A stretch of DNA of 64,000 bases from a virus (IMGVR_UViG_3300009183_005911:1-64000); one strand, 5' to 3'; numbered from the stretch's first letter, positions 16,879 to 36,174 are shown. A program made the numbers and translations. The notes: generated by a model not told the origin, from the sequence alone.

Positions 16879-17172
16879 ATGAGTTCTAAATTACACCCCT
16901 TAAACGGGTATTTGGTTTTGAGACCAATTGAAACAGAAGAAGAAACGTACGGTAATATCGTTATTCCTGATCTAGGAAAAGAAAGACCGGAATTAGGCGA
17001 AGTGGTAGCAGTATCAGGAACCTATAACTATAATTCAGATAAGTTAGTTCCTTCTAACCTAGAAGTAGGCGATAAAGTATTAATACCTAAATTAGGATCA
17101 TTAAGAATCACTGTAGAAGGTGATGAGTATTTCATTTGTAAAGAACAAGACGTTTACGCAAAAATTAATTAA
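16879..17172 (+). CDS. groES: GroES co-chaperonin
   Basis: The 97-residue protein matches the Cpn10 family in length. It opens with LHPLNGYLVLRPIETEEETYGNIVIPD, which covers the first strands and the mobile loop that docks on GroEL, and continues EVVAVSG and GDKVLIPK. It lies two bases before groEL, as in bacterial groESL operons. It probably forms the heptameric lid for the phage GroEL. Confidence 0.92.
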   Translation: MSSKLHPLNGYLVLRPIETEEETYGNIVIPDLGKERPELGEVVAVSGTYNYNSDKLVPSNLEVGDKVLIPKLGSLRITVEGDEYFICKEQDVYAKIN

Positions 17173-17174
17173 AA

Positions 17175-18815
17175 ATGGCAACACAGACAGTTTTCGGAAC
17201 AGAATTAAAAAACAAACTATTAGCTGGTATTAAGCAATTAAACCAGTCAGTATCTTCCACTTTAGGACCAGGTGGTAGAACAGTATTAATAAAGGATCAA
17301 TCAGGTGAAGTAAAAGTAACTAAAGATGGCGTTACGGTAGCTAGATCGTTTCATGAGTTAGAAGACCAAGTAGAAGACTTAGGTGCACAACTTGTAAAGC
17401 AAGTATCTATTAAATCTGCTAATGAAGCAGGTGATGGTACTACAAAATCTACTTTACTTGCAACTACTATGGTAGAAGAAGGATTAAAATTAATTAATCA
17501 AGGTTCTAACCCAGTAGAAGTAAAGAAAGGTATTGACAAGTACGTTAAAGAAGTAGTAGAGCAGTTAAAGAAGATCTCTAAGGATGTAAGTTCTCAAGAT
17601 CAAATCAGACAAGTAGCTACTATATCAGCTAATGGCGATACAGAGGTAGGAGAATTAATTTCTACAGCTATTGAAAAAGTAGGTAGAGAGGGTATTGTTA
17701 CTATTGAAGAATCTAAGACAGGCGAAACTAGTTTAGAGGTAGTAGAAGGTATGCAATTTGATAGAGGTTATAAATCTCCATACTTTGTCACTAACAATAC
17801 AACAATGAATGCTGTATTAAACGATCCTTACATTTTAATCTACGACGGACGTATTACTAAAGCAGCTGAATTATTAAATGCATTAAGTAAAGTAAATTCA
17901 GATAACAAGCCTTTATTAATTGTTGCAGAAGATATCGAAGATGAAGCATTAGCTACTTTGATTGTAAATAAAATGAGAGGTATTGTTTCAGTAGCTGCAG
18001 TTAAAGCACCAGATTTTGGTGAAAGAAGAACTTTAATCTTAGAAGACTTAGCTATCTTAACAGGAGGTACAGTTATTGCAAAAGATAAAGGGCATAAGTT
18101 AGATAAATTAACTCCCGTACAGCTTGTAGAAATGTTTGGTAAAGCTAGAACAATTACAGTATCAAAAGAAGCTACTACAGTAGTAGATGGTAATGGTACA
18201 GTAGAAGCTATTACAGCTAGAGCTCAAGAGATTAAAGATCAAATTGAGAAAGCTACTTCATTCTACGAGAAAGAAAAATTACAAGAGAGATTAGGTAAAC
18301 TAATTGGCGGTGTAGCAATTATTTCAGTAGGAGGTAATTCTGATATTGAAATTAAAGAAAGAAAAGATAGAGTAGAAGATGCTTTATTTGCTACTAAAGC
18401 AGCATTAGTAGAAGGAGTTGTTCCCGGTGGCGGTATTGCATTGATTGAAGCAATTAATGCTTTAAAGATGGATACAAATATTTCTCTTGATGAGATAAAA
18501 GGATTTGATATTGTTAAGAGAGCTTGCTACCAACCATTCAAGACAATTTTAGAGAATTGCGGTATTGAAGATTACTATTCTGTTTTAAGAGCAGTACAAG
18601 ATGCTAAGACTGAAAATAACTTAGCTACCTATAATGCTAAAACTCAAGAAGTAGTAGATGCAACAGAAGCAGGATTATTAGATCCAGCTAAAGTAACTCG
18701 TACTGCTTTAGAGAATGCCGCTTCAGTAGCAGGAACTATACTAACAACAGAATCAGTTATTTTCGAGAAGAAAGACGATAAGAAACAAGAAGACCCAGCA
18801 GCGGGCATGTACTAA
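17175..18815 (+). CDS. groEL: GroEL chaperonin (Hsp60)
   Basis: The 546-residue protein is a full-length chaperonin. It has the nucleotide loop [14 protein letters not shown] with catalytic D87, apical-domain sequence [11 protein letters not shown] and [12 protein letters not shown]. The C-terminal tail is short and charged, ending DPAAGMY, and lacks the long GGM repeat of most bacterial GroELs. A complete GroEL/ES pair in a phage suggests that a phage or host protein needed in bulk folds poorly in the host chaperonin. A strong terminator follows. Confidence 0.95.
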
Positions 18816-18837
18816 TAAGGGTTGTTTTAAAATAGGG

Positions 18838-18863
18838 AGCTCTTCTTAATTGAAGAGCTTTCT
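18838..18863 (+). terminator. Rho-independent terminator after groEL
   Basis: AGCTCTTC and GAAGAGCT form a perfect 8-bp stem around TTAATT, followed by a short T-rich run. Confidence 0.75.
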
Positions 18864-18872
18864 CTATTTATA
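18864..18872 (+). promoter_or_regulatory. CTATTTATA box (putative phage late promoter)
   Basis: CTATTTATA occurs 11 nt before the start at 18884, just after a terminator, so a new transcript should begin here. No TTG element is seen about 20 nt upstream. Confidence 0.45.
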
Positions 18873-18883
18873 TAAAAAGACAT

Positions 18884-19489
18884 ATGAAAAAAATACCAGT
18901 AACAGTACTAACCGTAATAAGCTTAATAGCTATTACAGTACTTATGACACAAAAATTAAAAAAATCAGAAGTTGCTCCTGAAAGAGCATTGGTAGTTGTT
19001 GAGGGTAAGTTTGCATTTTGCGGTGCATCAGCAGCAATACCAACAGGTGATACAATAACTGTAGAAGGTAAGAAATTCTTAGAAGGAGTAGCAGCTTGTC
19101 CAATAATGGACGGTCCTTCCATTGCTAATAATATACTAGTACCTAATCCTTCAGTAACTCCTGACAGTACAGATAAAACAGTATGGTCCTACTTTTGGTA
19201 TTATGATTCAGTTCCTCAAGCTCCAACTTGGGAAAACTTACCTACAGTTAATCGTACATTCACAATTGCAAATACACCAGATAGCAGCATGAGCAACATG
19301 TGGTGCATGCCCTGTAAGATATTACCTAAAAAGGTTAACGGTGTAACAATAGCAAATTGCTACGGTCCACTTAATGAATTAGCTTTCCCAATGCGTAGAG
19401 CACTTAGAGCACATCCTGGTCAAACATCTGTAACACAAGCACCAGTAGGAGCACCGTATCCAGTTGGAACAATCATACCAAAACAATAG
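18884..19489 (+). CDS. Exported or membrane-anchored protein with WCMPC motif
   Basis: The 201-residue protein starts with a signal anchor (VTVLTVISLIAITVLM) and continues as a soluble domain facing the periplasm. It contains cysteines at about 46, 72, 141, 144 and 159. W140-C141-M-P-C144-K resembles a thioredoxin active site, but the surrounding sequence does not follow that fold. It could be a small redox or disulfide-stabilised envelope protein. It has its own CTATTTATA box and precedes the Fe-S genes. Confidence 0.6.
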   Translation: MKKIPVTVLTVISLIAITVLMTQKLKKSEVAPERALVVVEGKFAFCGASAAIPTGDTITVEGKKFLEGVAACPIMDGPSIANNILVPNPSVTPDSTDKTVWSYFWYYDSVPQAPTWENLPTVNRTFTIANTPDSSMSNMWCMPCKILPKKVNGVTIANCYGPLNELAFPMRRALRAHPGQTSVTQAPVGAPYPVGTIIPKQ

Positions 19490-19495
19490 AACATT

Positions 19496-19906
19496 ATGGC
19501 ATATTCAGAAAAAGTCTTAGAACATTACTCTAATCCTAAAAATATAGGAACTCTAGATAAATCTAAGTTAAACGTAGGTACGGGATTAGTAGGTGCTCCA
19601 GAATGCGGTGATGTAATGAGATTACAAATAGAAGTAGAAGATAATATAATCGTTAACGCTAAATTCAAAACATTTGGATGCGGTTCAGCAATAGCTTCTT
19701 CTTCAGTAGCTACAGAATGGTTGAAAGGAAAAACATTAGATGAAGCTGTTACTATAGATAACATGGATTTAGTAGAGGAATTAAATTTACCTCCTGTTAA
19801 AATTCACTGTTCAGTATTAGCAGAAGATGCTATTAAAGCAGCTATTAATGATTATAGAGTAAAACAAGGTTTAGAAGCAATTATATTTGAAGAATCACAT
19901 ATATGA
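19496..19906 (+). CDS. iscU: Iron-sulfur cluster scaffold protein IscU
   Basis: IscU assembles [2Fe-2S] clusters from iron and cysteine-desulfurase sulfur and hands them on. The three ligand cysteines are in place: C37 (GAPECGD), C62 (FGCGSA) and C105 (KIHCS). The LPPVK chaperone-recognition motif is at residues 98-102. Length (136) is normal. Downstream ferredoxin and IscA genes complete a mini-ISC set. No cysteine desulfurase is seen in the window, so sulfur probably comes from host IscS or SufS. Confidence 0.93.
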   Translation: MAYSEKVLEHYSNPKNIGTLDKSKLNVGTGLVGAPECGDVMRLQIEVEDNIIVNAKFKTFGCGSAIASSSVATEWLKGKTLDEAVTIDNMDLVEELNLPPVKIHCSVLAEDAIKAAINDYRVKQGLEAIIFEESHI

Positions 19907-20004
19907 TAATATTATTACTTTTGGTTACTACATTCATTCTTTCCTACTATTTAGCAAAGTGGCATGTTAAATTATTTGATGAAACAAACCTTACAAATTT
20001 ATAA
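19903..20004 (+). CDS. Very short single-span membrane peptide (33 aa)
   Basis: An ATG overlapping the iscU stop by 4 nt opens a 33-residue frame. A hydrophobic N-terminal segment (MIILLLLVTTFILSYYLA) is followed by a short polar tail. It fills the gap between iscU and ferredoxin with coupled starts, which supports translation. Function unknown. Confidence 0.5.
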   Translation: MIILLLLVTTFILSYYLAKWHVKLFDETNLTNL

Positions 20005-20007
20005 ATT

Positions 20008-20316
20008 ATGAGTTTTATTATTGGAAAAAGTTGTGTTGATTGTATGGATACAGCTTGCGCTAATGCTTGTCCTGTTGACTGTATTCACGGACCTATAACC
20101 GTTGGAGGCTCAGGTGCAGAAGTAGCAGCACAAGGCAAAGAAGCATTCCCAGGTGGACAATTATACATAGACCCTGATACTTGTATTAACTGTGGTGCTT
20201 GTGTTCCAGAATGTCCTGTTAGTGCAATCTATGAAGATGAAGATATTGCAATTAAAGCAGGTGATGAAGAATCAGTTCATAAAAATTATGAGTTTTTCGG
20301 ATTAAAGTATGCATAA
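20008..20316 (+). CDS. fdx: Ferredoxin with two Fe-S cluster motifs
   Basis: The 102-residue protein is a 2x[4Fe-4S] or [3Fe-4S]/[4Fe-4S] ferredoxin. The first cluster set is C9, C12, C17, C21-P and the second is C59, C62, C65, C69-P. The region between the sets is expanded, and there is an acidic C-terminal extension. It probably donates electrons for cluster assembly or to radical-SAM or reductive enzymes. The isc-type [2Fe-2S] ferredoxin is usual beside iscU, so this bacterial-type ferredoxin is an unusual partner. Confidence 0.9.
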   Translation: MSFIIGKSCVDCMDTACANACPVDCIHGPITVGGSGAEVAAQGKEAFPGGQLYIDPDTCINCGACVPECPVSAIYEDEDIAIKAGDEESVHKNYEFFGLKYA

Positions 20317-20639
20317 TGGTAACAGTATCAGAAACAGCAGCAATAAAATTAGCTTCATTAATTGAAGAAAGTGGATTCAAAACTCCATTTGTTAGAGTAG
20401 CAGTTAAAGGAGGTGGATGTAGTGGATTATCTTATGATTTATCCTTTGATACTGAACAACACCCATCTGATACATTAGCAGAAGATAAAGGTGTAAAAAT
20501 ACTTGTAGATATGAAATCTCTATTATACCTTTATGGCACAGAATTAGAGTTTAGTGGCGGCCTAAACGGCAAAGGATTTCAGTTTATAAATCCAAATGCA
20601 TCCCGTACTTGTGGATGCGGAGAGAGCTTTGCATTATAG
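20316..20639 (+). CDS. iscA: A-type iron-sulfur carrier (IscA/ErpA/HesB family)
   Basis: The 107-residue protein has the HesB/IscA signature: GGGCSGLSY with C35 and TCGCGESF with C99 and C101 at the C-terminus. These cysteines pass clusters to target apoproteins. It shares one base with the ferredoxin stop. Together with IscU this would let the phage mature its own Fe-S proteins such as QueE. Confidence 0.92.
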   Translation: MVTVSETAAIKLASLIEESGFKTPFVRVAVKGGGCSGLSYDLSFDTEQHPSDTLAEDKGVKILVDMKSLLYLYGTELEFSGGLNGKGFQFINPNASRTCGCGESFAL

Positions 20640-20651: not shown

Positions 20652-21308
20652 ATGAAACGAAAAATAGTATTAATACTAACACTTATTGCTTTTTTGAGCA
20701 TATTTGTAAGCCTTGCACTTAACGCACAAGATACGATTCGTATCAAACATACTAACTATACTACAGTATTTAGCAAATCAAAACACTACCCAGTCTTAGT
20801 AGAATGGTATGCAACTAAAGCTAAAATAGGATGTGAAAAACCTTTAACACGTAAAGATAATTTTCAGCCAGATCCTCAATTACCTATAGAAACTGATTTA
20901 AAAGCTGATTATGTAGGATCAGGAACAGATAGAGGACATATGATGCCTGCAGCCGACAATTTATGTCAAACACCTGAAGTACAGAATGAATGTTTCTACT
21001 TCTCTAATATGTCTGCACAGTATCATAGTCTAAACGCAGGTGATTGGAAATCATTAGAAGTACTAAGCAGACAACTAGCCCTTGTAAATGACTCAGTTCA
21101 CATTTGGTGCGGTAATATAGGAGAGGCTAAAAAAATAGGAAAAGTAACAGTTCCTAAGCAATGTTGGAAAGTAATATACATTATTAGAAGTAAAGAGTAT
21201 CAAGCATATATATTCGATAATACTACAAATAAGCCAACCGGCTTACATTCTCATCAAGTAACAGTTGATGACATCACTAAATTAACAGGTTTTAAGTTCA
21301 AAAAGTAG
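20652..21308 (+). CDS. Secreted DNA/RNA non-specific endonuclease
   Basis: The protein has a signal peptide ending SLALNA, with cleavage before Gln, then a NUC1/EndoG-like domain. The catalytic motif is DRGH at residues 93-96 with MMPAADN after it, and the magnesium-binding Asn lies in FYFSNMSAQ. It should cut DNA or RNA in the periplasm or outside the cell, for example degrading competitor phage or host DNA. It is the first gene of the exported-protein locus. Confidence 0.88.
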   Translation: MKRKIVLILTLIAFLSIFVSLALNAQDTIRIKHTNYTTVFSKSKHYPVLVEWYATKAKIGCEKPLTRKDNFQPDPQLPIETDLKADYVGSGTDRGHMMPAADNLCQTPEVQNECFYFSNMSAQYHSLNAGDWKSLEVLSRQLALVNDSVHIWCGNIGEAKKIGKVTVPKQCWKVIYIIRSKEYQAYIFDNTTNKPTGLHSHQVTVDDITKLTGFKFKK

Positions 21309-21318
21309 GTTATATATT

Positions 21319-21327
21319 CTATTTATA
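21319..21327 (+). promoter_or_regulatory. CTATTTATA box
   Basis: CTATTTATA lies 11 nt before the GTG start at 21339. Confidence 0.4.
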
Positions 21328-21338
21328 TCCAAACCGTA

Positions 21339-21821
21339 GTGAAAGCATTTTACTTAATTATGGTTATGATTATACTGAGTATTTCTGGATTAGCTCAAAA
21401 AAAAGCCGCTCTTGGTACTATAGTAAACAATATTAAAGCAGGCCCCCTAACAGGTAATAAAAATCTTGCTTTTGGCGTTAAAAACGTACTACAGGAGGCC
21501 CTTCAAGATAAGGGCTTTAGTTTAGTAGACAGATTTGATGCTGATTATGTTATAGATGTAGAAATTTCTTTCTTCGATGTAGAACAGACCAAGCAAGGTA
21601 TTTCTGTTTTCCATGAAGATAAGAATGAAGTTGTAATAAGGATGAGAGGTACTTTATCAGATGGATTTGGTAAAGCTTTAAAGACTATAAACACTGAAGA
21701 TAGATCTTCAGAAATAAGTACATCCACGTTGTTGATAAATGAAGGAGGTCAGTTTAATTCTGCCGTACAAAGAAATGCAATTAAAAAAGCGTGTGTTTCG
21801 GTTGTGACAAAATTATTCTAA
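21339..21821 (+). CDS. Exported CsgG-like small protein
   Basis: A GTG start gives a 160-residue protein with a signal peptide ending SGLA, cut before Gln. The mature part follows the pattern of CsgG/LpoB-like domains: a strand (AALGTIVNNI), a helix (GVKNVLQEALQDKGF), then SLVDRFDADYVIDVEI and a second helix near the C-terminus (AVQRNAIKKACVSVV). A longer relative is at 24765. The assignment is structural and tentative. Confidence 0.55.
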   Translation: MKAFYLIMVMIILSISGLAQKKAALGTIVNNIKAGPLTGNKNLAFGVKNVLQEALQDKGFSLVDRFDADYVIDVEISFFDVEQTKQGISVFHEDKNEVVIRMRGTLSDGFGKALKTINTEDRSSEISTSTLLINEGGQFNSAVQRNAIKKACVSVVTKLF

Positions 21822-21824
21822 ATT

Positions 21825-23567
21825 ATGAAACATTTATTGACAACAATCTTACTATGTGTAGGATTTTTTGGATTCGGACAAAATTTACAGTTAACTAATG
21901 GAAGTCCTGCAACAGGCATACCTACTTGGTTTATGTCTCCGAGTACTATTAACAAGAATATAAGGGGTAATAATATTCAAAAAGGAGATACTGTTGCTCT
22001 TTATTTTAACTTAGTAGAAAACGGATCTCACATTAGAGGTTTCTTTTTTGATATGCAATATCAGTATAAGCAGATTACCTATATAAGTGCATCTCTAGAT
22101 ACAGCAGTAGGAGGATCAGCGCACGGTATAGTTCCAGTAGCAAACTACTTCTATACATACGACTATCCCGGGTATATCTGGAATGGACCTAATGGTACAG
22201 ATGCATCTTGGAATTATAATCGTATGAGTTATAATTACAATAACGGTAATAATGCTATCTTACGTTTATATAGTAACTATGCAACCAATACGGATTTCGC
22301 AGACGGTAGATTTTTAAAAGTATTATTTAAATATAATTCTAATATACCTGCAGGATTTGCATATGATAGTCTGTACTTTAACTGGGCCTATACCTACAAT
22401 ACAGCAGGGCAAATGATTAATTCATATATGCCTTATCCTCAATCAGTATGGACTACCTTAGAGCCAGGAGCTAACGACTTAGTTAACGGAGAAGTAAGAT
22501 TAAACTTCTCAGGCGGTTCAGATATTAAAGCTTCAGCAGCACCTGTATTTAATATTATAGATTCAATAACTAATATAACTGTTGCTAAACTAAGTATCGG
22601 TAACAGCGGCGTTTATCATTTAACAACTGAAGTTAAACCTAATACGGTATACAAAGTTAATCTAGCAATAGATAGCATGGCTTATTACTTAAACAAAGCT
22701 GTAACTGTATCAGACTATACTAAAGCAGCTTATGAATTTGCACAGCAGAATATAGACGGCACTTTTAAATGGAGTACTAACATTACTACTGGAGCAGGAG
22801 CTTGGGCAGCTGATGTAAATAATAACGGTAAGTTTGATGGTGGCGATCCTATTGTAATTCTAAACCAAGTAATGGGATTAGATAGTATTTCAAAATATAA
22901 GTCATATCCTTTAGTTCTAAGACAAACTGCCTTAGACTCATTAACACCGGCAGATGTATTTACTTCTGGGTTTAGTTCTAAGTTTAACGACACTATCAGA
23001 TATAAAACAACAGACACTACTTCCACTTTTAACTTAGGATTTGTAGTTCCAGGTGACATTAACCACTCACATTCATCAGCACCAATTGCTACTAACGGTA
23101 CTATTAAGTCAAATAGCATTAAAGGATTTGCAGTTAACACAATTCAAACCTTACCCGAAATTGATGTAAGTTTAAATAACGTAGTTGTATCAGGAGACAC
23201 ATTATCGATTCCATTCGATGTTGATACGAAAGGCAATAAGATGGATGCACTACAATTTGAAATTGTATACGATCAGTCTAAGTTACAATTTACTAATCTA
23301 GCCGTTAATATAGGTGAATGGTTAAATTTTGCTACAATTGTAGACGGTAAGTTAAGGTTTGGCGGTATCGATAAAACATTAAAATTTCCGATTACCGGCA
23401 AAACAACACCATTCAGATTAAATTTCAAAACACTACAGCCAGGAGTTAATATCAATACGGTTATTAGAGTATCTCCAGTAATGGATGCAGCAGATAACAT
23501 TGGTAATCAATTAGGTATAAATTTAAACACAAACATTTTAAAAATCATCGGATCAAATAACTTCTAA
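21825..23567 (+). CDS. Large secreted protein with cohesin-like and dockerin-like segments
   Basis: The 580-residue protein has a signal peptide (FFGFG, cut before Gln). The first 200 residues and the last 130 are beta-rich and resemble cohesin-type domains (for example GDTVALYFNLVE; SIPFDVDTKGNKMDALQFEI). Between them are dockerin-like calcium loops, DVNNNGKFDGGDPIVILNQV near residue 335 and a weaker VPGDINHSHS near 410. It could be a cell-surface adhesin or scaffold. There are no catalytic motifs. Domain naming is from sequence pattern only. Confidence 0.6.
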   Translation: MKHLLTTILLCVGFFGFGQNLQLTNGSPATGIPTWFMSPSTINKNIRGNNIQKGDTVALYFNLVENGSHIRGFFFDMQYQYKQITYISASLDTAVGGSAHGIVPVANYFYTYDYPGYIWNGPNGTDASWNYNRMSYNYNNGNNAILRLYSNYATNTDFADGRFLKVLFKYNSNIPAGFAYDSLYFNWAYTYNTAGQMINSYMPYPQSVWTTLEPGANDLVNGEVRLNFSGGSDIKASAAPVFNIIDSITNITVAKLSIGNSGVYHLTTEVKPNTVYKVNLAIDSMAYYLNKAVTVSDYTKAAYEFAQQNIDGTFKWSTNITTGAGAWAADVNNNGKFDGGDPIVILNQVMGLDSISKYKSYPLVLRQTALDSLTPADVFTSGFSSKFNDTIRYKTTDTTSTFNLGFVVPGDINHSHSSAPIATNGTIKSNSIKGFAVNTIQTLPEIDVSLNNVVVSGDTLSIPFDVDTKGNKMDALQFEIVYDQSKLQFTNLAVNIGEWLNFATIVDGKLRFGGIDKTLKFPITGKTTPFRLNFKTLQPGVNINTVIRVSPVMDAADNIGNQLGINLNTNILKIIGSNNF

Positions 23568-23568
23568 T

Positions 23569-23937
23569 ATGAAAAAATTAACATATATTTTAATAGCAAG
23601 TTCAGTAATATTTATTACTAGCTGTACAAAGATAGTATCTCCTCCAGTTCCCGGAATAGAAGTAACTAAAACTGATATAGGTACATTGAGTATCAGTAAG
23701 GTTGTGAACGACGGAAACTTTGAAGCTACAGTAACAGGTTTAACTATTGGAAGTAAGTATAGCTTACAGATAGTAGATATAAACCAAGACGTTTTTAAGA
23801 ATGTAAAGGTAGAAACCATAAGCGATGCTTTTACAACTAGTTTTGCAGTTAAGTTAAAAGATGGAGCCTACGATATTATATTTGTTGATAGTAAAGCAAA
23901 TACGATAGGTAGAACTCCATTAATTATTAAAAATTAG
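23569..23937 (+). CDS. Small lipoprotein
   Basis: The N-terminus MKKLTYILIASSVIFITSCTK has a lipobox with Cys at residue 19, so the protein should be lipidated. The mature 100 residues are beta-rich without a known domain. It follows the cohesin-like protein by one base and could anchor it at the outer membrane. Confidence 0.65.
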   Translation: MKKLTYILIASSVIFITSCTKIVSPPVPGIEVTKTDIGTLSISKVVNDGNFEATVTGLTIGSKYSLQIVDINQDVFKNVKVETISDAFTTSFAVKLKDGAYDIIFVDSKANTIGRTPLIIKN

Positions 23938-23940
23938 TAT

Positions 23941-24285
23941 ATGGCAAAAGCAACAAAAACAACAAAAACAGCTGAAGATGCTGCAATGGCTAAGAATGAA
24001 AAGCATAACGACGGTACAATGACTGGTTTAAAGAAAACTATTATTGGTACAGTTGGTACACTAATAACTGCAGGAGGTGCGTTTTTACTGACCTACTTAC
24101 AGAAACCAAAAGAAAGTGATAAGCAAGTTCAACCGCAAAGTATTAATATCAACGTTCCAGCACAACAGCAATCAACAGGCGGAACTAAGACAGTGGTTAT
24201 AAAAGAAAAAGCAGCTGAAAAAACAGCAACTCCAGTTAAGAAAAAAGAAGGAGACGAGTTTAAAGAGGAAGCTCCTAAATGGTAA
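23941..24285 (+). CDS. Single-span membrane protein with charged tails
   Basis: The 114-residue protein has a Thr/Lys-rich N-terminal tail, one hydrophobic segment at about residues 33-50 (TIIGTVGTLITAGGAFLLTYL), and a Gln/Lys-rich C-terminal tail. In phages such proteins often lie in lysis regions. It directly precedes a holin-like gene. Confidence 0.55.
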   Translation: MAKATKTTKTAEDAAMAKNEKHNDGTMTGLKKTIIGTVGTLITAGGAFLLTYLQKPKESDKQVQPQSININVPAQQQSTGGTKTVVIKEKAAEKTATPVKKKEGDEFKEEAPKW

Positions 24286-24313
24286 TTTACAATCACAATT
24301 AAAATTCACAATC

Positions 24314-24556
24314 ATGACTTTTAAAGAATGGATTATTTCTCTTTTTAAAGATGAAAGAGGTGCTATTTCAGTTAAACCTGTAATTGCATTTATCGGTGCA
24401 TTATTCCTTTGCGGAACAATGTTAGCAAATAGCTTTTCAGAAGACCATTTTAAACCGGCAGCTGAATTAGTAAACGCAGTAATGGTAATAACAGTAATTG
24501 GAATGGGTGCTGATACCTTAGATAAGTTTACTTCCAAGAAAAAAGAAGAAGCGTAA
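24314..24556 (+). CDS. Holin-like small membrane protein
   Basis: The 80-residue protein has two hydrophobic spans (VKPVIAFIGALFLCGTMLA and ELVNAVMVITVIGMGA) and a short Lys-rich C-terminus, the size and layout of many phage holins. It would form lesions in the inner membrane at lysis. A strong terminator follows. No canonical endolysin is adjacent, so the role is inferred from topology. Confidence 0.55.
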   Translation: MTFKEWIISLFKDERGAISVKPVIAFIGALFLCGTMLANSFSEDHFKPAAELVNAVMVITVIGMGADTLDKFTSKKKEEA

Positions 24557-24561
24557 CCAAG

Positions 24562-24586
24562 AGGGGACCTTCGGGTCCCTTTTTTT
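24562..24586 (+). terminator. Rho-independent terminator
   Basis: GGGACC-TTCG-GGTCCC forms a stem closed by a stable UUCG tetraloop and is followed by seven T residues. Confidence 0.9.
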
Positions 24587-24597
24587 AAATAAAATAT

Positions 24598-24762
24598 ATG
24601 AATAAGTTTTTTAATGTTTTTGTAAGAGTTTGTTTAGCATGGGCTATAATTGCCTTAACGTTTCAAGTTACAATGTTAACTTTAAGTTATACAAACCCTA
24701 AGTTAGCAACGAAAGTCGGTAATGAATTAAGTTGGAAATTAGATGGTCGATTTAAAAAATAA
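24598..24762 (+). CDS. Small membrane protein (54 aa)
   Basis: A frame from ATG 24598 encodes a hydrophobic first half (FVRVCLAWAIIALTFQVTML) and a basic C-terminus. It lies right after the terminator and ends two bases before the CsgG-like gene. Confidence 0.55.
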   Translation: MNKFFNVFVRVCLAWAIIALTFQVTMLTLSYTNPKLATKVGNELSWKLDGRFKK

Positions 24763-24764
24763 GT

Positions 24765-25493
24765 ATGAGAGTTTTTATAATTATTTTAGGATTTATACTA
24801 GCATGCTTAATAACGGATAAAGCATTTGGACAAACTATAGGTTCAACAAAAACAGAGCAATATAAAGCTTCTTTTGAAACAAAAATAGACATTAGTCAAT
24901 TTTTAAATTATGAAGGACCAACAATACCAATTCAAATTCTTAAATGTGGTATTGGTGATGATGTTTATGAGCAATATCCTGAACTCAAAGAAAAGAAAGT
25001 GGGTTTGGGTGTGGCTAACATCTCGTTGGAATATCTTGAAAATCTTAACCGATTTACATTTACAGAAGATAAGACAGAGATTAAAAACAGAATGGTTAAG
25101 CAGTTTCAAGCTTCCCAAGCTGGAATAAGTCAAGATAAGTTAGACGGTAGAGGTAAGATAAGATTAGCACACTACTTTGTAGAGATAGAAGTTTACGACT
25201 GGTCTGTATCAGATGATGAAGAAATAAATTTAAAAGACGGAGTTAAGAATACTATGGTAACTCGTCTAGGTTTACAAGTTCGTTTTACAGATGCAGAGAC
25301 AGGAGAAATTATAGCTGCATCAGGCTTAGGAGAAGCTAAGACAACTAGAGAGTTAACTCTACTATCAGACGCTACAGTAGATCCAGTTAAGTTTAATCAA
25401 TCAACAGTTAGTATAGCTACTAAGAAAGCTTTAGATATTGCTTGTAGTAGAATACTTGCTCGTATGGTTAAGAAAAATATATTTAAAAATTAA
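24765..25493 (+). CDS. CsgG-like exported protein (curli-transport-type family)
   Basis: The 242-residue protein has a signal peptide ending DKAFG, cut before Gln, and follows the CsgG fold in order: VGLGVANISLEYLENLNRFT (strand and tyrosine/asparagine segment), helix EIKNRMVKQFQ, RLAHYFVEIEVYDWSVSD, LGLQVRFTDAETGEII and a C-terminal helix. CsgG forms nonameric outer-membrane secretion pores; many relatives are not curli channels. The lipobox of canonical CsgG is absent, so pore formation is not assured. Confidence 0.65.
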   Translation: MRVFIIILGFILACLITDKAFGQTIGSTKTEQYKASFETKIDISQFLNYEGPTIPIQILKCGIGDDVYEQYPELKEKKVGLGVANISLEYLENLNRFTFTEDKTEIKNRMVKQFQASQAGISQDKLDGRGKIRLAHYFVEIEVYDWSVSDDEEINLKDGVKNTMVTRLGLQVRFTDAETGEIIAASGLGEAKTTRELTLLSDATVDPVKFNQSTVSIATKKALDIACSRILARMVKKNIFKN

Positions 25494-25496
25494 TTT

Positions 25497-25604
25497 ATGG
25501 GAACAGCAGCACCAAAGAAAAGAGCAATGCGCAGTAGACGCTCTGGAGTTAAAAAATTAACTTTAGTAAAAAAGAATTTAGAAATATTAAATAAAGTAAA
25601 ATGA
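25497..25604 (+). CDS. Very short basic protein (35 aa)
   Basis: The frame encodes a strongly basic peptide (PKKRAMRSRRSGVKKLTLVKK). Its stop overlaps the next start by 3 nt. Nucleic-acid binding is possible; function unknown. Confidence 0.45.
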   Translation: MGTAAPKKRAMRSRRSGVKKLTLVKKNLEILNKVK

Positions 25605-25942
25605 TAAAGTTATCAGATTTAATTTTAGAGACTACTAATCAAAGCGAAGCATTTGAAGAGTTTGCTGAGAAGAGATTTAAAGGAGCTAAAAAAATAGCAG
25701 ATAATGCTAAAGAAAAAGGCGGACCTTCTATGTTAACCTACCATCACTTTGTAGTGAAGCTTCCTTACTATACTAAAGCTGAAAATGGTAAGATGGATAT
25801 GGAAGCAGCACAAAAAGAATATACACAGTTTGTAGAACAGTTAGCTTCTCAAAAGAAAAATATTAAAATGTCTATGATTGAGTTTCAAAAATTAGTTGGT
25901 AAAATTGAGGTATTGGGTGAATTGATTTTAAAAAATAAGTAA
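25601..25942 (+). CDS. Hypothetical 113-aa protein
   Basis: The protein begins MIKLSDLILETT, a start often seen in small proteins of large phages, and continues as a charged helical sequence. No domain or signal peptide is recognised although the neighbours on both sides are exported. Confidence 0.5.
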   Translation: MIKLSDLILETTNQSEAFEEFAEKRFKGAKKIADNAKEKGGPSMLTYHHFVVKLPYYTKAENGKMDMEAAQKEYTQFVEQLASQKKNIKMSMIEFQKLVGKIEVLGELILKNK

Positions 25943-25943
25943 T

Positions 25944-26762
25944 ATGAAAAAAACTCTATTCTTTTTATTAATATTTCCAGCAATAGCTTTCTCACAAGTG
26001 TCGAGTTGGAGAACTGCCTCATCTCAGCAATCGCAAACATCACAACCAAGAGTTCAACAATCAACTTCACAACAACAAAATAATGTAAGTCAATGGAGAA
26101 CCCAAACTGCACCTATTAGACCTGGTGATAACTTTGAAGGACAGTCATTAGTAAGAAAATATAGACCTACAACATACAATCCTTATGGTTTACAGTACGG
26201 TGTATGGGGATGGTATCAACCCTATCCTTATATTTGGTATGACAATTACGGATGGAGACAGAGAAGTGTAGTTCGCATCTATGAAAACGGAAAAAGAGAT
26301 ACAGTTGCTTCAACACCAACATTATTTTCAGCAGGTATAGGACATACAACTAATAAACAAACAGCTTATTGGGGATTAATTGGCAGTAATAAAGGATATT
26401 TCATTATGGATTATGTAATGACTTATGCTATAGACCAAAACAGCTATTTCCCATATGGTCAAATTAACAATGTAGACTTTCCACTTAGCAAAAATGATTG
26501 GAAAAAAGAATCAACGTTCTATGTAGGTGGGGGTAAAAGAATTGGTAAAATAGGAATACATGGTATGATAGGATTCGGTAATGAAGTTATTAGATGGCAA
26601 GGTAAAGATGCAATAGGCGGTATATCATTTCCAAAATCAAATTCATCATTCACTACATTCAAAGTCGGGTTAATAAGAGACTTTAAATTTTTTACATTAA
26701 AATTAGATACCGACCCAATTAGAGGATATTCACAAATCGGAATTGGACTTAATAACAAATAA
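25944..26762 (+). CDS. Predicted outer-membrane or secreted protein (272 aa)
   Basis: The signal peptide ends AIAFS before Gln. A Gln/Ser-rich linker follows, with SSWRT and SQWRT repeats, then an aromatic segment (WGWYQPYPYIWYDNYGW) and glycine-spaced amphipathic strands ending QIGIGLNNK, as in small beta-barrels. It shares its last base with the next gene. An outer-membrane location is inferred from the strand pattern. Confidence 0.55.
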   Translation: MKKTLFFLLIFPAIAFSQVSSWRTASSQQSQTSQPRVQQSTSQQQNNVSQWRTQTAPIRPGDNFEGQSLVRKYRPTTYNPYGLQYGVWGWYQPYPYIWYDNYGWRQRSVVRIYENGKRDTVASTPTLFSAGIGHTTNKQTAYWGLIGSNKGYFIMDYVMTYAIDQNSYFPYGQINNVDFPLSKNDWKKESTFYVGGGKRIGKIGIHGMIGFGNEVIRWQGKDAIGGISFPKSNSSFTTFKVGLIRDFKFFTLKLDTDPIRGYSQIGIGLNNK

Positions 26763-28135
26763 TGAAAAGATGGATATTAAACTTTTCAATATTAGTTTTG
26801 TTTTTATTCGCTTCTAAAGCGAACGGTCAGACTATTACTACCACTTACACTGATCCCTGTACAAACGAAATCAAGACGCTAGTCATACCTGCAATAGGTC
26901 CTGGCGTTGTTGTTATGTATAGAGGTTCATACAAACTAGTAACTGCAGCTGATGTTAAAAGCGGTGCTTTTCAAGCATGGATAACATCAGTTACAGCTTC
27001 AATGCCATGTCCAACAACAGTAACCACAACTATAGCACAACAAGCCGCAACAGCAGCTTCAAACGCAGCCTCACAAGCCGCATCAGCAGCAGCCAGCGCA
27101 GCAGCTTCTTCCGCAGCATCGTCGGCAAGTTCAAGCGCTTCTTCCTCAGCTTCATCAGCAGCTTCATCAGCCGCAGCAAGCGCTTCCTCTTCCGCTGTGA
27201 GTGCACCACCGGCAGCGTCTTCTTCTCCTGCATCAACTTCATCGGGATCATCCTCACAATCCCAATCGTCATCATCTTCTGGGGAATCGTCTTCATCCAG
27301 TTCTTCATCGGCAAGCAGCGGAGGAGAGCAAAAGAGTTCAGAAGGAGGTTCAAGTAGTAGCTCTTCAGAGGGTAAATCTGAAAGCAGTTCTTCTGAATCT
27401 AAATCAGAAAGTAAATCAGAATCTAAATCAGAAAAAAAATCTGAAGAGAAGAAGAAACAAGAAGAAGAAAAGAAAAAGAAACAGGAAGAACGAAAAGCAA
27501 ATCCTCCTGTAGTAAAGGCAGACTTATCTGTTATACAGATGGGTAGTGTCGTTATTCCTACTTTCAATGTTAATATGTCCAAGTCTCTAAACGAAGGAAT
27601 GTTTAGCTACGGATTAAATACTTCAGTTAGAGCAGATTTAAAGCAAGTAGTGATTGGAGGAAGTACTTCTGATATAATAATGAGAAAAGGTAAGTTATTG
27701 GGAGTAACTTCTACTAGTGTAACTTATGTAACAGATTGGAATAATAAATTTATATTCTATGGATGGAGCTTTGTCAAACCTTTACAGAAAGGTGCAGTAG
27801 CAGGTCTAGCTCTAAGTGGAAATACTCTATTACTAACTGGAAGCCAAACCTTAATATCCCCTTCTATCATAGCCTTCTATACCAGACCTTATCAGATTAG
27901 TAAGAAACAGGTGATATCCCCGGAGATTTACATTATCTCCTCACCCGTGATGTTTGGTCAACAAGATAAAAAAGCTACGTATGACCCCAATCTCTCCTTC
28001 TTTACGGGAGCTGGTACGGATATTAAATTTAGTAAGAAGTTTAAACTAAATATTAATTTTAAAGTTAATATAAGTACTAATTCAAACGTTCCGGTTATGT
28101 CTGTATTTGCCATTGGCTCAAAAATAAACATATAA
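26762..28135 (+). CDS. Secreted protein with long Ser/Ala linker and predicted beta-barrel end
   Basis: The 457-residue protein has a signal peptide ending KANG before Gln, a short globular part to about residue 85, then about 150 residues of almost pure Ser/Ala shifting to Ser/Glu/Lys. The last 200 residues alternate hydrophobic strands with turns and finish on Ile, resembling an outer-membrane barrel. The linker could span the periplasm or cell surface. No known family is recognised. Confidence 0.6.
   Translation: MKRWILNFSILVLFLFASKANGQTITTTYTDPCTNEIKTLVIPAIGPGVVVMYRGSYKLVTAADVKSGAFQAWITSVTASMPCPTTVTTTIAQQAATAASNAASQAASAAASAAASSAASSASSSASSSASSAASSAAASASSSAVSAPPAASSSPASTSSGSSSQSQSSSSSGESSSSSSSSASSGGEQKSSEGGSSSSSSEGKSESSSSESKSESKSESKSEKKSEEKKKQEEEKKKKQEERKANPPVVKADLSVIQMGSVVIPTFNVNMSKSLNEGMFSYGLNTSVRADLKQVVIGGSTSDIIMRKGKLLGVTSTSVTYVTDWNNKFIFYGWSFVKPLQKGAVAGLALSGNTLLLTGSQTLISPSIIAFYTRPYQISKKQVISPEIYIISSPVMFGQQDKKATYDPNLSFFTGAGTDIKFSKKFKLNINFKVNISTNSNVPVMSVFAIGSKINI
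27010..27490. repeat. Low-complexity Ser/Ala then Ser/Glu/Lys coding tract
   Basis: Short imperfect repeats of GCA/TCA/TCT-type codons encode alternating Ala and Ser, followed by Ser-Glu-Ser-Lys units. The tract produces long spurious open frames on both strands. Confidence 0.8.
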
Positions 28136-29475: not shown

Positions 29476-29884
29476 GGGGCATCCTTGGAATTGATCCGTA
29501 ATTCGGAGGTAATACCACACGCGGACAAAGTAAGATAAGTCCTTAAAACCTTACGAAACAATAACTGTAGAATTATCTACTATGACCTTCGAAGACTTAA
29601 TGTCTTTCGTAGGTGCTGATGAGTACGCTTACGCTGCTTAATCACATCCCGTATCACTCATGGGACTTTAAAAAGAAGTGACAACCCCGCTATAGTCTCA
29701 GTATTATAGCTCTGCTCCTTCTGGGAGTTTCTTGGTAGTCATAAAACCAAGTGGTGGTAGTCGTAAGAACCAAAAATCATATACGACCCTCTACTGATCA
29801 GGATAAAAACAGATCTAAGCGTGTGAGACGTTGGTATTATTGTTCATTACGGAGACATGGGTTCGACTCCCATATGCTCCACCA
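29476..29884 (+). ncRNA. ssrA: Transfer-messenger RNA (tmRNA)
   Basis: The 409-nt RNA has a tRNA-like frame: 5' GGGGCAT pairs with 3' ATGCTCC, and the 3' end reads CGGAGACATGGGTTCGACTCCCAT with encoded ACCA, closely matching bacterial tmRNA ends, after the conserved TCTAAGCGTG. An internal tag frame ends GAGTACGCTTACGCTGCTTAA. With the resume codon at GCT 29615, preceded by TAG as usual, the tag is ADEYAYAA. tmRNA rescues stalled ribosomes and marks products for proteolysis. SmpB was not seen in the window, so host SmpB is presumably used. Confidence 0.88.
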
Positions 29885-30319: not shown

Positions 30320-30391
30320 CGCGAGATAGAGCAGAGGTAGCTCACTAGGCTCATAACCTAGGGGTCGGAGGTTCGAATCCTTCTCTCGCAA
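30320..30391 (+). tRNA. tRNA-Met (CAT), initiator type
   Basis: The cloverleaf has anticodon CAT in GGCTCATAACC and a T arm GGAGG-TTCGAAT-CCTTC. The first acceptor base C30320 faces A, the C1-A72 mismatch that marks bacterial initiator tRNA. The remaining acceptor pairs GCGAGA with TCTCGC. The sequence follows bacterial tRNA-fMet through GAGCAG and GGTAGCTC. CCA is not encoded. The anticodon stem has AGG/CCT instead of three G-C pairs. Confidence 0.88.
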
Positions 30392-30400
30392 CAAATAACA

Positions 30401-30462
30401 CTACCTGCCGCTGGTATAACCAGAGCATGACTTGGATGGCGACTTTGAAAAATAGTAGGTAG
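30401..30462 (+). ncRNA. Unassigned structured RNA segment 1
   Basis: CTACCTG at 30401 pairs with TAGGTAG at 30456 over seven bases. Inside is a CTGG-TATAA-CCAG hairpin. It has an acceptor-like end stem but no T arm and no obvious anticodon arm, so it is not a normal tRNA. Confidence 0.35.
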
Positions 30463-30509
30463 TTGTTACAATATTAAAGGTTGATTGGGAAATCTTATAC
30501 TTTTTAACT

Positions 30510-30594
30510 GTAGAAAGGGCTAGTATAGGGTGAGGGGGCGCAAGCCAAAGTAAAGCTAATCGTAAAAGTAGATGTCCACGCACCCATCTTCTAC
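30510..30594 (+). ncRNA. Unassigned structured RNA segment 2
   Basis: A nested fold is visible: GTAGAA/TTCTAC (30510, 30589), GGGTG/CACCC (30528, 30581) and a GGC-GCAA-GCC tetraloop hairpin at 30537-30546. An alternative AAAGTAGATG/CATCT-CTACTTT hairpin overlaps the 3' half, so two exclusive folds are possible. No family is recognised. Confidence 0.35.
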
Positions 30595-30609
30595 TTTCCT
30601 AATTTTACA

Positions 30610-30737
30610 TGCCAGAGTGGCGGAATAAACAATGTATTGCTGAACCTCGAGCCGTAATGCATTGAGACGTACCTAATCCGGAGTGGTGCAGTAACCGAAA
30701 AGGACTGCGTGAAGTTAAACAGTACTTCCTCTGGTAC
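30610..30737 (+). ncRNA. tRNA-like RNA, 128 nt
   Basis: TGCCAGA at 30610 pairs with TCTGGTA at 30730 as a 7-bp acceptor-like stem. GTGGCGGAAT after the 5' strand matches the D-arm start of class II tRNAs. A 9-bp stem (CAATGTATT/AATGCATTG), a variable-arm-like hairpin (GCAGT...ACTGC) and a GAAGT/ACTTC hairpin where a T arm should be follow in tRNA order. The T loop lacks TTCGA and the anticodon loop is about 17 nt, so a functional tRNA is unlikely as read. Confidence 0.4.
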
Positions 30738-30742
30738 CTTAA

Positions 30743-30765
30743 AGACGTTGGCTGTCAAAACGTCT
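30743..30765 (+). other. RNA hairpin
   Basis: AGACGTT and AACGTCT form a perfect 7-bp stem with a 9-nt loop. CTTAAAGACGT (from 30738) can alternatively pair with ACGTCTTAAG near 30793-30802, giving two exclusive folds. No T run follows, so it is not a terminator. Confidence 0.4.
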
Positions 30766-30811
30766 CTAAAATAAGCAGGACCATTAGCATTGACGTCTTA
30801 AGCTGGTGGTT

Positions 30812-30874
30812 GGTGGTTAGAAAAGGAACGTAATGCCAAGGGTCTGCAGCCCTCGTCTAAGTATTACCTCCACC
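30812..30874 (+). ncRNA. Unassigned structured RNA segment 3
   Basis: Three stems are nested: GGTGG/CCACC (30812, 30870), GTAAT/ATTAC (30830, 30863) and AGGG/CCCT (30839, 30850) closing a 7-nt loop TCTGCAG. It resembles an acceptor plus anticodon arm without D and T arms. The next tRNA starts five bases after it. Confidence 0.35.
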
Positions 30875-30879
30875 GTAAC

Positions 30880-30964
30880 GGAAAGATGGCAGAGTGGTTG
30901 AATGCACCAGTCTTGAAAACTGGCAACTGTAATAGGTTCTGGGGTTCGAATCCCTGTCTTTCCG
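30880..30964 (+). tRNA. tRNA-Ser (TGA)
   Basis: GGAAAGA pairs with TCTTTCC. The anticodon loop CTTGAAA gives TGA within ACCAGT/ACTGG-type flanks, a long variable arm follows, and the T arm is GGGTTCGAATCCC-like with discriminator G. CCA is not encoded. Length 85 nt is typical of tRNA-Ser. Confidence 0.95.
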
Positions 30965-30967
30965 CAT

Positions 30968-31038
30968 TGCCCTTTAGTATAACGGTAGTACGACTGTTTT
31001 TGGTGCAGTTTGTTGAGGTTCAAATCCTTGAGGGGCAA
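30968..31038 (+). tRNA. tRNA-Gln (TTG)
   Basis: TGCCCTT pairs with AGGGGCA, the anticodon stem ACTGT/GCAGT closes loop TTTTGGT with anticodon TTG, and the T arm is TGAGG-TTCAAAT-CCTTG. It follows tRNA-Ser by three bases. Stems contain several G-U pairs. Confidence 0.9.
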
Positions 31039-31052
31039 CTAAAATTAAACAT

Positions 31053-33117: not shown

Positions 33118-34551
33118 ATGCTAAAAGAAGGTTATATTCTACAAGCAGATAGAAAGAAAATTCTACTACTCTGCGACGATATCAGATTTACATCTGGTAT
33201 TTCAACAATGGCTAAAGAGATTGTCATTGGAACAGCACATCGTTTTAACTGGGTAAACTTAGGAGCTGCAATCAATCACCCTGATCAAGGTAAGAGATTT
33301 GATATTTGTCAAGACACAGGCACTTTAGCAAATATTCCAGATGCCTCGGTGTTCATTATTCCATCTTCAGGTTATGGATCCCCTGAATTATTACGTCAAG
33401 TAATCGATCTAGAGAAACCAGATGCAATTATGTTTTTCACTGATCCACGTTATTGGATATGGTTGTTTCAAATGGAGAGTGAGATTAGAAAAAAGATGCC
33501 AATGATCTATTTGAATATTTGGGACGACTTACCTGCACCAATTTATAATAAACCTTACTATGAATCTTGTGATACATTATTAGCTATTTCAAAACAAACT
33601 GCTAATATTAATAGACTGGTGTTAGGCAGTAAAATGAAAGATAGAATAGTAAAGTATGTACCTCATGGAATTAATGAAAATGTATTCTTTCCTCAAACTA
33701 AAGATGCTCCTGAAGTAGTAGAAATGAGAAAGCAGTATTTTGGAGATAATCAACCAGAGTTTGTAATATTATATAACGCTAGAAATATTAGACGTAAATG
33801 TACTTCTGATTTAATCCTAGCTTGGGCTCAATTCTGTGATAAGATTGGAAAAGAGAAAGCTAAAAAATGTACTTTGTTATTACATACACAACCAGTAGAT
33901 GAAAACGGTACAGATTTAATTGCTATAACAGATCTATTCTGTGATTCAGAATACCAACGAGTAGTATTTTGTAACAATAGATACTCTCCCTATCAAATGA
34001 ATACCATGTATAATTGTGCAGATGCTGTAGCCTTAGTTTCTTCTAATGAAGGCTGGGGCTTATCTCTAACAGAGGGTATGATGTGCGGTAAGATGATTAT
34101 AGGAACTGTTACAGGCGGTATGCAAGATCAAATGAGATTTGAAAATGAAAAAGGAGACTGGATAGACTTTGATGAAACCTTCTGTAGTAATCACTTTGGT
34201 ACTTATAAGAAACACGGAGAGTGGGTAGTACCTGTATTTCCTTCTAATATGTCAATTGTAGGTTCTATTCCAACCCCGTACATATTTGACGATAGAGCTG
34301 ACTTTAGAGAAATTGCAACAGCTATAGAAAAAATATACAATCTAACTCCAGAAGAAAGAACTGAGAAAGGTTTAAAAGCTCGTGAATGGGTTACTTCAGA
34401 CGAATCAATGCAATCGGCTAGAATGATGGCTAAGAATGTAATTGATGGTGTTGAGGAAACGTTTACTAAGTGGAAGCCAAGAAAGAAATACGAGTTAATT
34501 AAAGTTGAAAAATTAGAAAAGAAAAAAGCATTACATCCTATTGTATATTAA
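33118..34551 (+). CDS. Glycosyltransferase, GT-B fold (GT4-like)
   Basis: The 477-residue protein has an N-terminal Rossmann-like half beginning KKILLLCDDIRFTSGIS and a C-terminal half with VPHGINENVFFP, ILYNARNIRRKC and SSNEGWGLSLTEGMMCGK, the sugar-nucleotide-binding E-x7-E type motif of GT4 enzymes. It should transfer a sugar from a nucleotide donor. The acceptor is unknown. It starts the 17-kb glycan locus. Confidence 0.8.
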   Translation: MLKEGYILQADRKKILLLCDDIRFTSGISTMAKEIVIGTAHRFNWVNLGAAINHPDQGKRFDICQDTGTLANIPDASVFIIPSSGYGSPELLRQVIDLEKPDAIMFFTDPRYWIWLFQMESEIRKKMPMIYLNIWDDLPAPIYNKPYYESCDTLLAISKQTANINRLVLGSKMKDRIVKYVPHGINENVFFPQTKDAPEVVEMRKQYFGDNQPEFVILYNARNIRRKCTSDLILAWAQFCDKIGKEKAKKCTLLLHTQPVDENGTDLIAITDLFCDSEYQRVVFCNNRYSPYQMNTMYNCADAVALVSSNEGWGLSLTEGMMCGKMIIGTVTGGMQDQMRFENEKGDWIDFDETFCSNHFGTYKKHGEWVVPVFPSNMSIVGSIPTPYIFDDRADFREIATAIEKIYNLTPEERTEKGLKAREWVTSDESMQSARMMAKNVIDGVEETFTKWKPRKKYELIKVEKLEKKKALHPIVY

Positions 34552-34570
34552 AAAATAAAGTTTATATTTA
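34541..34570 (+). promoter_or_regulatory. Bacteroidota-type promoter before 34575
   Basis: TTG at 34541-34543 and TATATTTA at 34563-34570, spacing 19 nt; the start codon follows four bases later. Confidence 0.5.
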
Positions 34571-34574
34571 AAGC

Positions 34575-35858
34575 ATGAAACAATACTGCGTTATATCAGC
34601 ACCTCCAGATACCTATTCAGGGTACGGTGCAAGATCAAGAGATTTTATCAAAGCTATCTACGAGTTAAAAAAAGACGAGTGGGATATTAAAATAATGCCT
34701 CAGAGATGGGGAAATACTTCTTGGGGTTTTTTAGAAGACTTTAAAGAAGAGTGGGGATGGATGATACCTTTACTAGTAAAAGGCCCTCTAACTAAACAAC
34801 CAGATATTTGGTTTCAAGTAACAATTCCTAATGAATTTCAACATGTAGGTAAAGTTAGTATAGGCGTTACAGCTGGTATTGAAACAACTGTATGTGATTA
34901 CGGTTGGATTGAAGGTTGTAATAGAATGGACTTAACTTTAGTTTCTTCTGTTCATGCTAAGACAGTCTTACAATCTACCTCGTATGCTAAGAATGATGCT
35001 CCATCAGTACAACTTAAAATTGAAAAACCAATAGAGGTTTTATTTGAAGGAGTAGATCTTAACAAATACTTCTACATGCCTGATGAAAAGATACCAGAAA
35101 CAGACTTAGTATTAGAATTAGATGAAATCAAAGAAGAATTTTGCTTCTTATACGTAGGTCACTGGTTACAGGGTGATCATGGAGAGGATAGAAAGAATAC
35201 AGGTAAGATGATTGAAACGTTTTTACAGACATTTAAAGGAAAGAAAAAGCAACCTGCTTTAGTGTTAAAGACCTCTCACGCAACGTCTTGTATTATGGAT
35301 AGAGAGGATACTTTAAAGAAAATAGATACTGTTAGAAAGATAGTTGGCGAAGAGGGTTTACCGAACATCTACTTACTACATGGTGATTTAGATGATGAAG
35401 ATATTAACTCTCTCTATAACCATCCTAAAATGAAAGCGATGATATCGTTCACAAAAGGAGAAGGTTATGGTAGACCGTTAGCAGAATTTTGTTTATCTAA
35501 AAAACCGGTAATTGCTTCTGCCTGGTCCGGTCAATTGGATTTCTTAGATAAAGAATTTGCTATACTACTTCCAGGTACCCTAACCCCCGTACACCCTTCT
35601 GCTCAATCTGCTAACTTAATTTTACCTAATTCGAATTGGTTTACTCCGGATTATAATGTTGCATCTAAAGTATTAGAGGATGTATATCAGAACTATAAGA
35701 AATATGAAGATAGAGGTAAACGTCAAGGACATAAAGTAAAGACTGAATTTAGCTATGATAGTATGGTATTATTCTTGTCTACCTATTTAAGTAAGTATAT
35801 AAATATACCTAAACAAGTAGAATTAAAATTACCTCAGTTAAAGAAAATATCAATATAA
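34575..35858 (+). CDS. Glycosyltransferase, GT-B fold
   Basis: The 427-residue protein starts CVISAPPDTYSGYGARSRDF and has the donor-site motif FTKGEGYGRPLAEFCLSKKP near residue 300. Middle segments YVGHWLQGDHGEDRKN and YLLHGDLDDED fit a GT4-type C-terminal domain. It carries its own promoter and may be transcribed apart from the first glycosyltransferase. Substrates unknown. Confidence 0.78.
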   Translation: MKQYCVISAPPDTYSGYGARSRDFIKAIYELKKDEWDIKIMPQRWGNTSWGFLEDFKEEWGWMIPLLVKGPLTKQPDIWFQVTIPNEFQHVGKVSIGVTAGIETTVCDYGWIEGCNRMDLTLVSSVHAKTVLQSTSYAKNDAPSVQLKIEKPIEVLFEGVDLNKYFYMPDEKIPETDLVLELDEIKEEFCFLYVGHWLQGDHGEDRKNTGKMIETFLQTFKGKKKQPALVLKTSHATSCIMDREDTLKKIDTVRKIVGEEGLPNIYLLHGDLDDEDINSLYNHPKMKAMISFTKGEGYGRPLAEFCLSKKPVIASAWSGQLDFLDKEFAILLPGTLTPVHPSAQSANLILPNSNWFTPDYNVASKVLEDVYQNYKKYEDRGKRQGHKVKTEFSYDSMVLFLSTYLSKYINIPKQVELKLPQLKKISI

Positions 35859-36163: not shown

Positions 36164-36174
36164 AATAAAATTAT

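Follow-up and report, generated by a model that had tools for sequence, protein, structure and literature searches.

A conserved gene module of Bacteroidota phages that may display cohesin- and dockerin-like proteins on the infected cell

Introduction

Two kinds of phage-encoded envelope protein are already known separately. Cryophage, a phage of Bacteroidetes, carries variable proteins with type A sorting domains of the type IX secretion system (T9SS), one of them with a PA14 domain; they are encoded by three separate cargo genes, which were called a unique occurrence, and the authors suggest secretion or superinfection exclusion (PMC7468147). The pelagimyophages and methylophage Melnitz, which are lytic myophages, encode a recognisable CsgG with CsgF, and phage CsgG has been proposed to help capture sibling cells (PMC7029224) or to time lysis (PMC9004378). 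Here we describe a ten-gene locus at positions 20652-28135 of virus record IMGVR_UViG_3300009183_005911, of which 64 kb (the window) out of a 68.3-kb IMG/VR record was analysed. We propose, with a probability of roughly 0.55, that the phage encodes here an envelope module through which infected Bacteroidota cells come to carry cohesin/dockerin proteins on their surface. Our search of open PMC papers turned up no conserved module with a sorting domain that is either fused or split.

Like the pelagimyophages and Melnitz, the locus encodes an exported protein of CsgG fold (CSGB). However, its two CsgG-like proteins are diverged, the first hairpin of CSGB is charged, CsgF is absent among the locus proteins, and a cohesin-like protein (COH), a lipoprotein (LP) and a barrel protein (BAR2) are encoded in addition. 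In contrast to the cargo of Cryophage, the T9SS label in relatives of the window is tied to a conserved module of CsgG-like proteins, a membrane protein (TM1) and the barrel, and in one lineage it has been split off onto the lipoprotein. The same module occurs in Flavobacterium phage immuto (Immutovirus, NC_055915) at gp12-gp19, where gp15 is a cohesin protein with a T9SS domain, gp16 is TM1, gp17 is CSGB, gp18 is BAR2 and gp19 is of the type of CsgA1, the second CsgG-like protein. The immuto sorting domain lies at 13186-13410, inside gp15 and directly before TM1. In that record the module genes are annotated as hypothetical proteins, cohesin and lectin, and no function or module is described.

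Results and Discussion

A conserved module in related phages

A scan with CSGB (24765-25493) matched 477 stretches of viral contigs, against just two in contigs of bacterial genomes; these two come from metagenome-assembled genomes, and at least one of them (L163) is phage-like and carries an endolysin. Direct DNA comparison of the window with phage records gave no match, and its relatives are metagenome contigs of large phages, the only cultured ones being the Flavobacterium phages immuto. For a census we used 61 non-redundant related loci with long flanks from metagenome contigs, bearing in mind that the counts depend on open reading frame (ORF) calling and that clades are unevenly weighted. 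COH (21825-23567), TM1 (23941-24285), CSGB and BAR2 (26762-28135) are present in all 61, on the same strand and close together. CsgA1 (21339-21821) is found in 60, the small membrane protein TM2 (24314-24556) in 47, and BAR1 (25944-26762) in nine; the gene at 25601 (S113) was ruled out as a core part. A second search seeded with TM1 recovered CSGB in 63/63 and BAR2 in 62/63 loci with enough downstream DNA, although this set shares some contigs with the first and so checks the choice of query rather than providing a fully independent sample.

A putative variable cargo and its sorting partner

COH is an exported protein of 580 amino acids that gives profile matches to PDB entries for, in order, a scaffoldin cohesin, a dockerin and a scaffoldin cohesin (E 0.003-0.03 each), which agrees with the first-pass annotation of a cohesin/dockerin-like product. 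The dockerin-like stretch (22695-22877, residues ~291-351) contains the Ca-loop-like DVNNNGKFDGGD, and the C-terminal cohesin-like domain occupies 23154-23567. Taken alone, the COH of the window has no Pfam match; among 45 homologues, Pfam reports Cohesin in 26 (up to 1.4e-12), the T9SS C-terminal domain in 13, and Lectin_C and PA14 in five each. Comparison with the syntenic phage L012 shows COH to be 40% and LP 38% identical, against 63-96% for neighbouring genes. Variation in COH is greatest over its N-terminal half and least at its C-terminal end, which includes the second cohesin-like domain. This pattern fits, without proving, a putative surface-displayed hypervariable cargo with a conserved anchoring end.

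In the COH that adjoins TM1 at the 61 loci, a T9SS sorting domain is present in 29, LP (23569-23937) takes the place of that domain in 30, and the two never occur together (P 2e-15). The exceptions are L062, where the insertion of a barrel gene has shifted LP, and L100, where the COH frame ends before the sorting domain. LP was counted with a length limit, since the iterated LP profile also catches fused C-terminal domains. The number of LP genes equals the number of COH genes in 31/31 LP-type loci and in 51/52 loci of the TM1-seeded set. When a sorting-domain profile was run over 11,657 ORFs, LP proteins were the only matches outside COH among those listed to E 0.06. By hhalign the LP family aligns to the T9SS C-terminal domain at 95% (E 3.9e-8), whereas LP against four other module families stays below 2%. 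The LP of L059 matches Pfam PF18962 with E 1e-5, just under the cut-off. At family level, these profile comparisons make LP a diverged relative of the T9SS sorting domain, and this relation replaces our earlier candidates of a plain lipoprotein or an fn3 domain. The sorting domain itself (PF18962) exceeds the Pfam cut-off once per genome in 13 sister phage records.

A tree of CSGB has two deep clades, one for each form. On the window's side, L025, L031 and L027 carry the fused form; three changes are needed in all, one of which is forced by strongly supported branches. Most simply, COH and LP would constitute one functional unit that has been split or fused. The LP and COH of the window are diverged members and are assigned through their families.

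Layout and export signals

All ten genes at 20652-28135 lie on the plus strand, with gaps mostly below 30 bp, and the ORFs are where the first-pass annotation placed them. Judged by their signals, seven of the ten products are exported. In six the signal ends in a small residue followed by Gln (20652, 21339, 21825, 24765, 25944 and 26762), and the product of 23569 is a lipoprotein with lipobox ITSC. Six products cut before Gln and one lipoprotein had been predicted, and both counts hold; the seven are, however, not strictly consecutive as had been described, because 23941 (one transmembrane segment), 24314 (two) and 25601 (soluble) are interposed. A rough signal-peptide rule picks out 13 of the window's 98 candidate genes, and seven of these lie in the ten-gene block (hypergeometric P 1.2e-5). 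The Gln is retained among relatives, at position 23 of BAR2 in 59/59 aligned sequences and at position 19 of COH in >90%. A lenient pattern for this motif is matched by 129/132 CSGB, 115/115 BAR2, 198/200 COH and 36/36 sequences of the nuclease encoded at 20652, against 1/6 GroEL and 8/79 TM2 controls. Cleavage before Gln is the rule for substrates of signal peptidase I in Bacteroidetes (PMC5837995), and the locus proteins therefore look adapted to export in a Bacteroidetes host; these sequences give good support to predicted Sec export with cleavage at this site.

The 208-bp gap between TM2 and CSGB (24556-24765) holds a GGGACC-CGAA-GGTCCC hairpin. A search for the Bacteroidota promoter pattern TTTG-N17-21-TANNTTTG gave no match, and a scan for sigma-70-like promoters gave a result near chance level.

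CsgG-fold proteins and a predicted barrel

The predicted structure of CSGB has a CsgG fold (AlphaFold2 [AF2] mean confidence, pLDDT, 77). The best Foldseek matches are all CsgG (4uv2, E 3e-7, probability 1.0, TM-score 0.40-0.50). PF03783 does not match the CSGB of the window and matches only 2/30 relatives (best 1.9e-4). CSGB is ~76-94% identical among window-type phages. CsgA1 is a small periplasmic protein homologous to CSGB (hhalign 95.7%, E 8.6e-9), and many of its relatives have an N-terminal transmembrane anchor. Two CsgG-like proteins had been annotated at the locus, and both stand, 24765 by fold and 21339 by homology to it.

The same annotation proposed checking 24765 as a pore oligomer, and named a CsgG-like fold lacking a membrane segment as a finding that would refute its reading. 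By eye the hairpins of CSGB are similar in length to those in the Escherichia coli CsgG sequence. Hairpin 1, however, is acidic at 150-152 in 30/30 relatives, with an invariant D151-E152 pair whose two acids point to opposite faces. Unlike in E. coli CsgG, no charge-free face of 10 residues exists on its up-strand, and for this hairpin the refuting finding named by the annotation is thus what is seen; an uncharged face is present in each CsgG hairpin and in all 12 strands of BAR2. For hairpin 2 the same test gives nothing against a membrane hairpin. The lipidated N-terminal Cys of CsgG is not found in the CSGB of the window, where the signal ends AFG-Q, and a lipobox is seen in the signal of several clade-B relatives. 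We therefore reject CSGB as a CsgG-type membrane pore, as its first hairpin has no lipid-facing side. Because that hairpin is charged on both faces, CSGB, if it acts like CsgG at all, is not obviously the pore and would rather be a periplasmic ring or adaptor.

In the AF2 model of BAR2, the signal peptide is followed by a small two-Cys domain and a helix rich in Ala and Ser, and a disordered Glu/Lys linker then leads to a 12-stranded barrel (residues 250-456, 27509-28129) whose block means are mostly 81-94 pLDDT. Cys33 and Cys83 are invariant in the alignment. Foldseek gives FapF as the best solved match (E 3.5e-8), followed by KdgM, NanC and autotransporter barrels. Helices at 84-130 and 225-244, sought as counterparts of the FapF plug helix and trimeric coiled coil, are predicted within surroundings of low confidence. 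BAR2 is like FapF (5o65/5o68) in having a 12-stranded barrel, an N-terminal helical part and a linker. Nevertheless, the 12-stranded KdgM and NanC match it nearly as well, KdgM with the higher TM-score to target, and neither a sequence relation to FapF nor Fap partners at the locus were seen. The safe reading of the model is an outer-membrane barrel, which may belong with FapF or with another of these 12-stranded barrels. Two barrel-like proteins had been annotated; the prediction for 26762 agrees, whereas BAR1 (25944), an exported Trp/Tyr/Gln-rich protein, is no more than a possible barrel and has no detectable relation to BAR2. Stand-alone BAR2-type barrels are also found between COH and LP in other phages (L050:4088-4993, L057:4923-5822 and L077:4916-5809; hhalign 97% to the BAR2 barrel). 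A protein with an N-terminal transmembrane segment and a coiled coil, possibly spanin-like, is encoded at 59961-60629 in the window, and weak relatives of it lie beside BAR2 in L041, L047, L057 and L071.

A proposed surface-display module

We propose that the conserved set spans the envelope. TM1, an inner-membrane protein with one transmembrane segment, a Pro/Gln/Lys-rich tail and an invariant terminal Trp (W114 in the alignment), and the two-segment TM2 would sit in the inner membrane, CSGB and CsgA1 in the periplasm, and BAR2 in the outer membrane, from which its long linker would reach into the periplasm. These parts probably form one trans-envelope complex. COH would be the variable cargo. 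Its sorting partner would be LP in the window; in sister phages a T9SS C-terminal domain is fused to COH instead, and lectin and PA14 proteins would be displayed there as well. Because the T9SS label is found at the same gene position in relatives, COH is expected at the cell surface in the window phage too. The phage may benefit by keeping competing phages out or by making infected cells adhere. An apparatus of the envelope rather than of the virion had been suggested from the outset, and the Gln-type Sec signals, the lipoprotein, the outer-membrane barrel and the T9SS domains of sister phages agree with that; among the roles then listed, modification of the surface during infection is the one now favoured. 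We also entertain, more tentatively, that TM1, CSGB, CsgA1 and BAR2 are a self-contained machine, of a class not described before, that carries a variable surface protein to its place or holds it there by way of a detached sorting-domain lipoprotein, so that a lytic phage could re-clothe its host without the host T9SS or alongside it.

Some observations weigh against display. No T9SS domain is recognisable in the window record, its own COH included. The window's own LP is not matched by the sorting-domain profile, only the LP family being so; taken together, these two do not account for how COH would cross the outer membrane in the window phage. Many relatives also have holin-like and endolysin genes within the module or close to it, which favours a role in lysis.

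Alternative explanations

The main rival is a lysis module, because a holin-like protein lies within the module and a GH19 endolysin within ~10 kb in 32/61 loci. TM2 would be the holin, TM1, LP, CSGB and BAR2 would act on the outer membrane in the manner of a spanin or disruptin, and the nuclease would thin the lysate. The size of TM2 and its two hydrophobic segments fit a holin (one relative has a weak match to holin phrog_35473, E 0.018), it sits between TM1 and CSGB in the window, and it lies beside the endolysin in L059, L075, L096, L102, L110 and L154; lysis is also the role proposed for CsgG/CsgF of Melnitz (PMC9004378). In the window, however, no endolysin is recognised in or beside the locus. 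Across the census the core is invariant, while endolysin (32/61) and TM2 (47/61) come and go, and T9SS-labelled lectin, PA14 and cohesin proteins have no evident part in lysis. We consider this explanation rather unlikely.

Alternatively, an LP that resembles the sorting domain, or a COH that bears it, could occupy the host T9SS and stop the display of receptors, giving superinfection exclusion like that of receptor-blocking phage lipoproteins. A decoy of this kind would account for a sorting-like domain that is always there in one of two forms, and for its single copy per sister genome. The proteins that bear it, however, also have large and variable adhesin domains, for which a decoy would have no use, and the 1:1 pairing of LP and COH suggests an anchor or chaperone instead. 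We consider a decoy improbable.

A curli- or Fap-like secretion system is likewise improbable. Its pore would be either CSGB, in the role of CsgG, or BAR2, in that of FapF, and its substrate COH or some other protein. The CsgG fold and the FapF match speak for it, but the charged hairpin, the missing lipidation Cys at the cleavage site of the window and the near-equal fit of KdgM and NanC speak against it. No CsgE, CsgF, CsgA, CsgB or Fap partner families are found among the ten locus proteins. That the products are virion proteins is hardly credible, given the Sec signals, the lipobox, the T9SS domains in relatives and the lack of a convincing structural PHROG among locus products, with nothing in its favour beyond their being phage genes.

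Neighbouring genes

The nuclease gene (20652-21308, plus strand) opens the locus. Its product is of NucA/EndoG type (PF01223, E 6.4e-38), with a DRGH motif, TDRGHMMPAADN in sequence, and Gln after the signal peptide; an exported nuclease had been annotated here, and relatives in jumbo phages are annotated as periplasmic nucleases. It had been suggested that the apparatus could secrete this enzyme, which the census does not support: the gene is found within ~10 kb in only 22/61 loci and in varying position, against 61/61 for COH, TM1, CSGB and BAR2. The census rules it out as a core part, and it is a loosely associated neighbour.

Directly upstream of it, 16879-20639 encodes GroES/GroEL followed by IscU-like, ferredoxin and IscA-like proteins; upstream of the Fe-S genes, 18884-19489 encodes a product with several Cys and a hydrophobic N-terminal segment that lacks relatives among the loci retrieved. 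A phage tmRNA gene (tag VELSTMTFEDLMSFVGADEYAYAA) and genes for tRNA-Met, -Ser and -Gln follow closely after the module, at 29476-29884 and 30320-31039; in phage Melnitz CsgG is also paired with tmRNA (PMC9004378). QueD-, QueE-, QueC- and FolE-like genes at 4036-11092 suggest 7-deazaguanine modification of DNA, and immuto also has DpdA. About 20 glycosyltransferase- or nucleotide-sugar-enzyme-like genes, together with sugar isomerase-like, GHMP kinase-like and nucleotidyltransferase-like genes, extend over 33118-50208, possibly a cluster for glycosylation of the surface or of DNA.

Implications

If the display of cohesin/dockerin proteins is correct, lytic phages of Bacteroidota would remodel the surface of the infected cell by a dedicated conserved module and not by single moron genes. 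It would also join two puzzles, the T9SS-labelled cargo of Bacteroidetes phages and the CsgG-like proteins of aquatic myophages. The sorting domain that is fused in some phages and split off in others amounts to a natural experiment on how the T9SS signal functions. Since immuto carries the module and is cultured on Flavobacterium sp. LMO8, these proposals can be tested with a phage and host that are both in culture.

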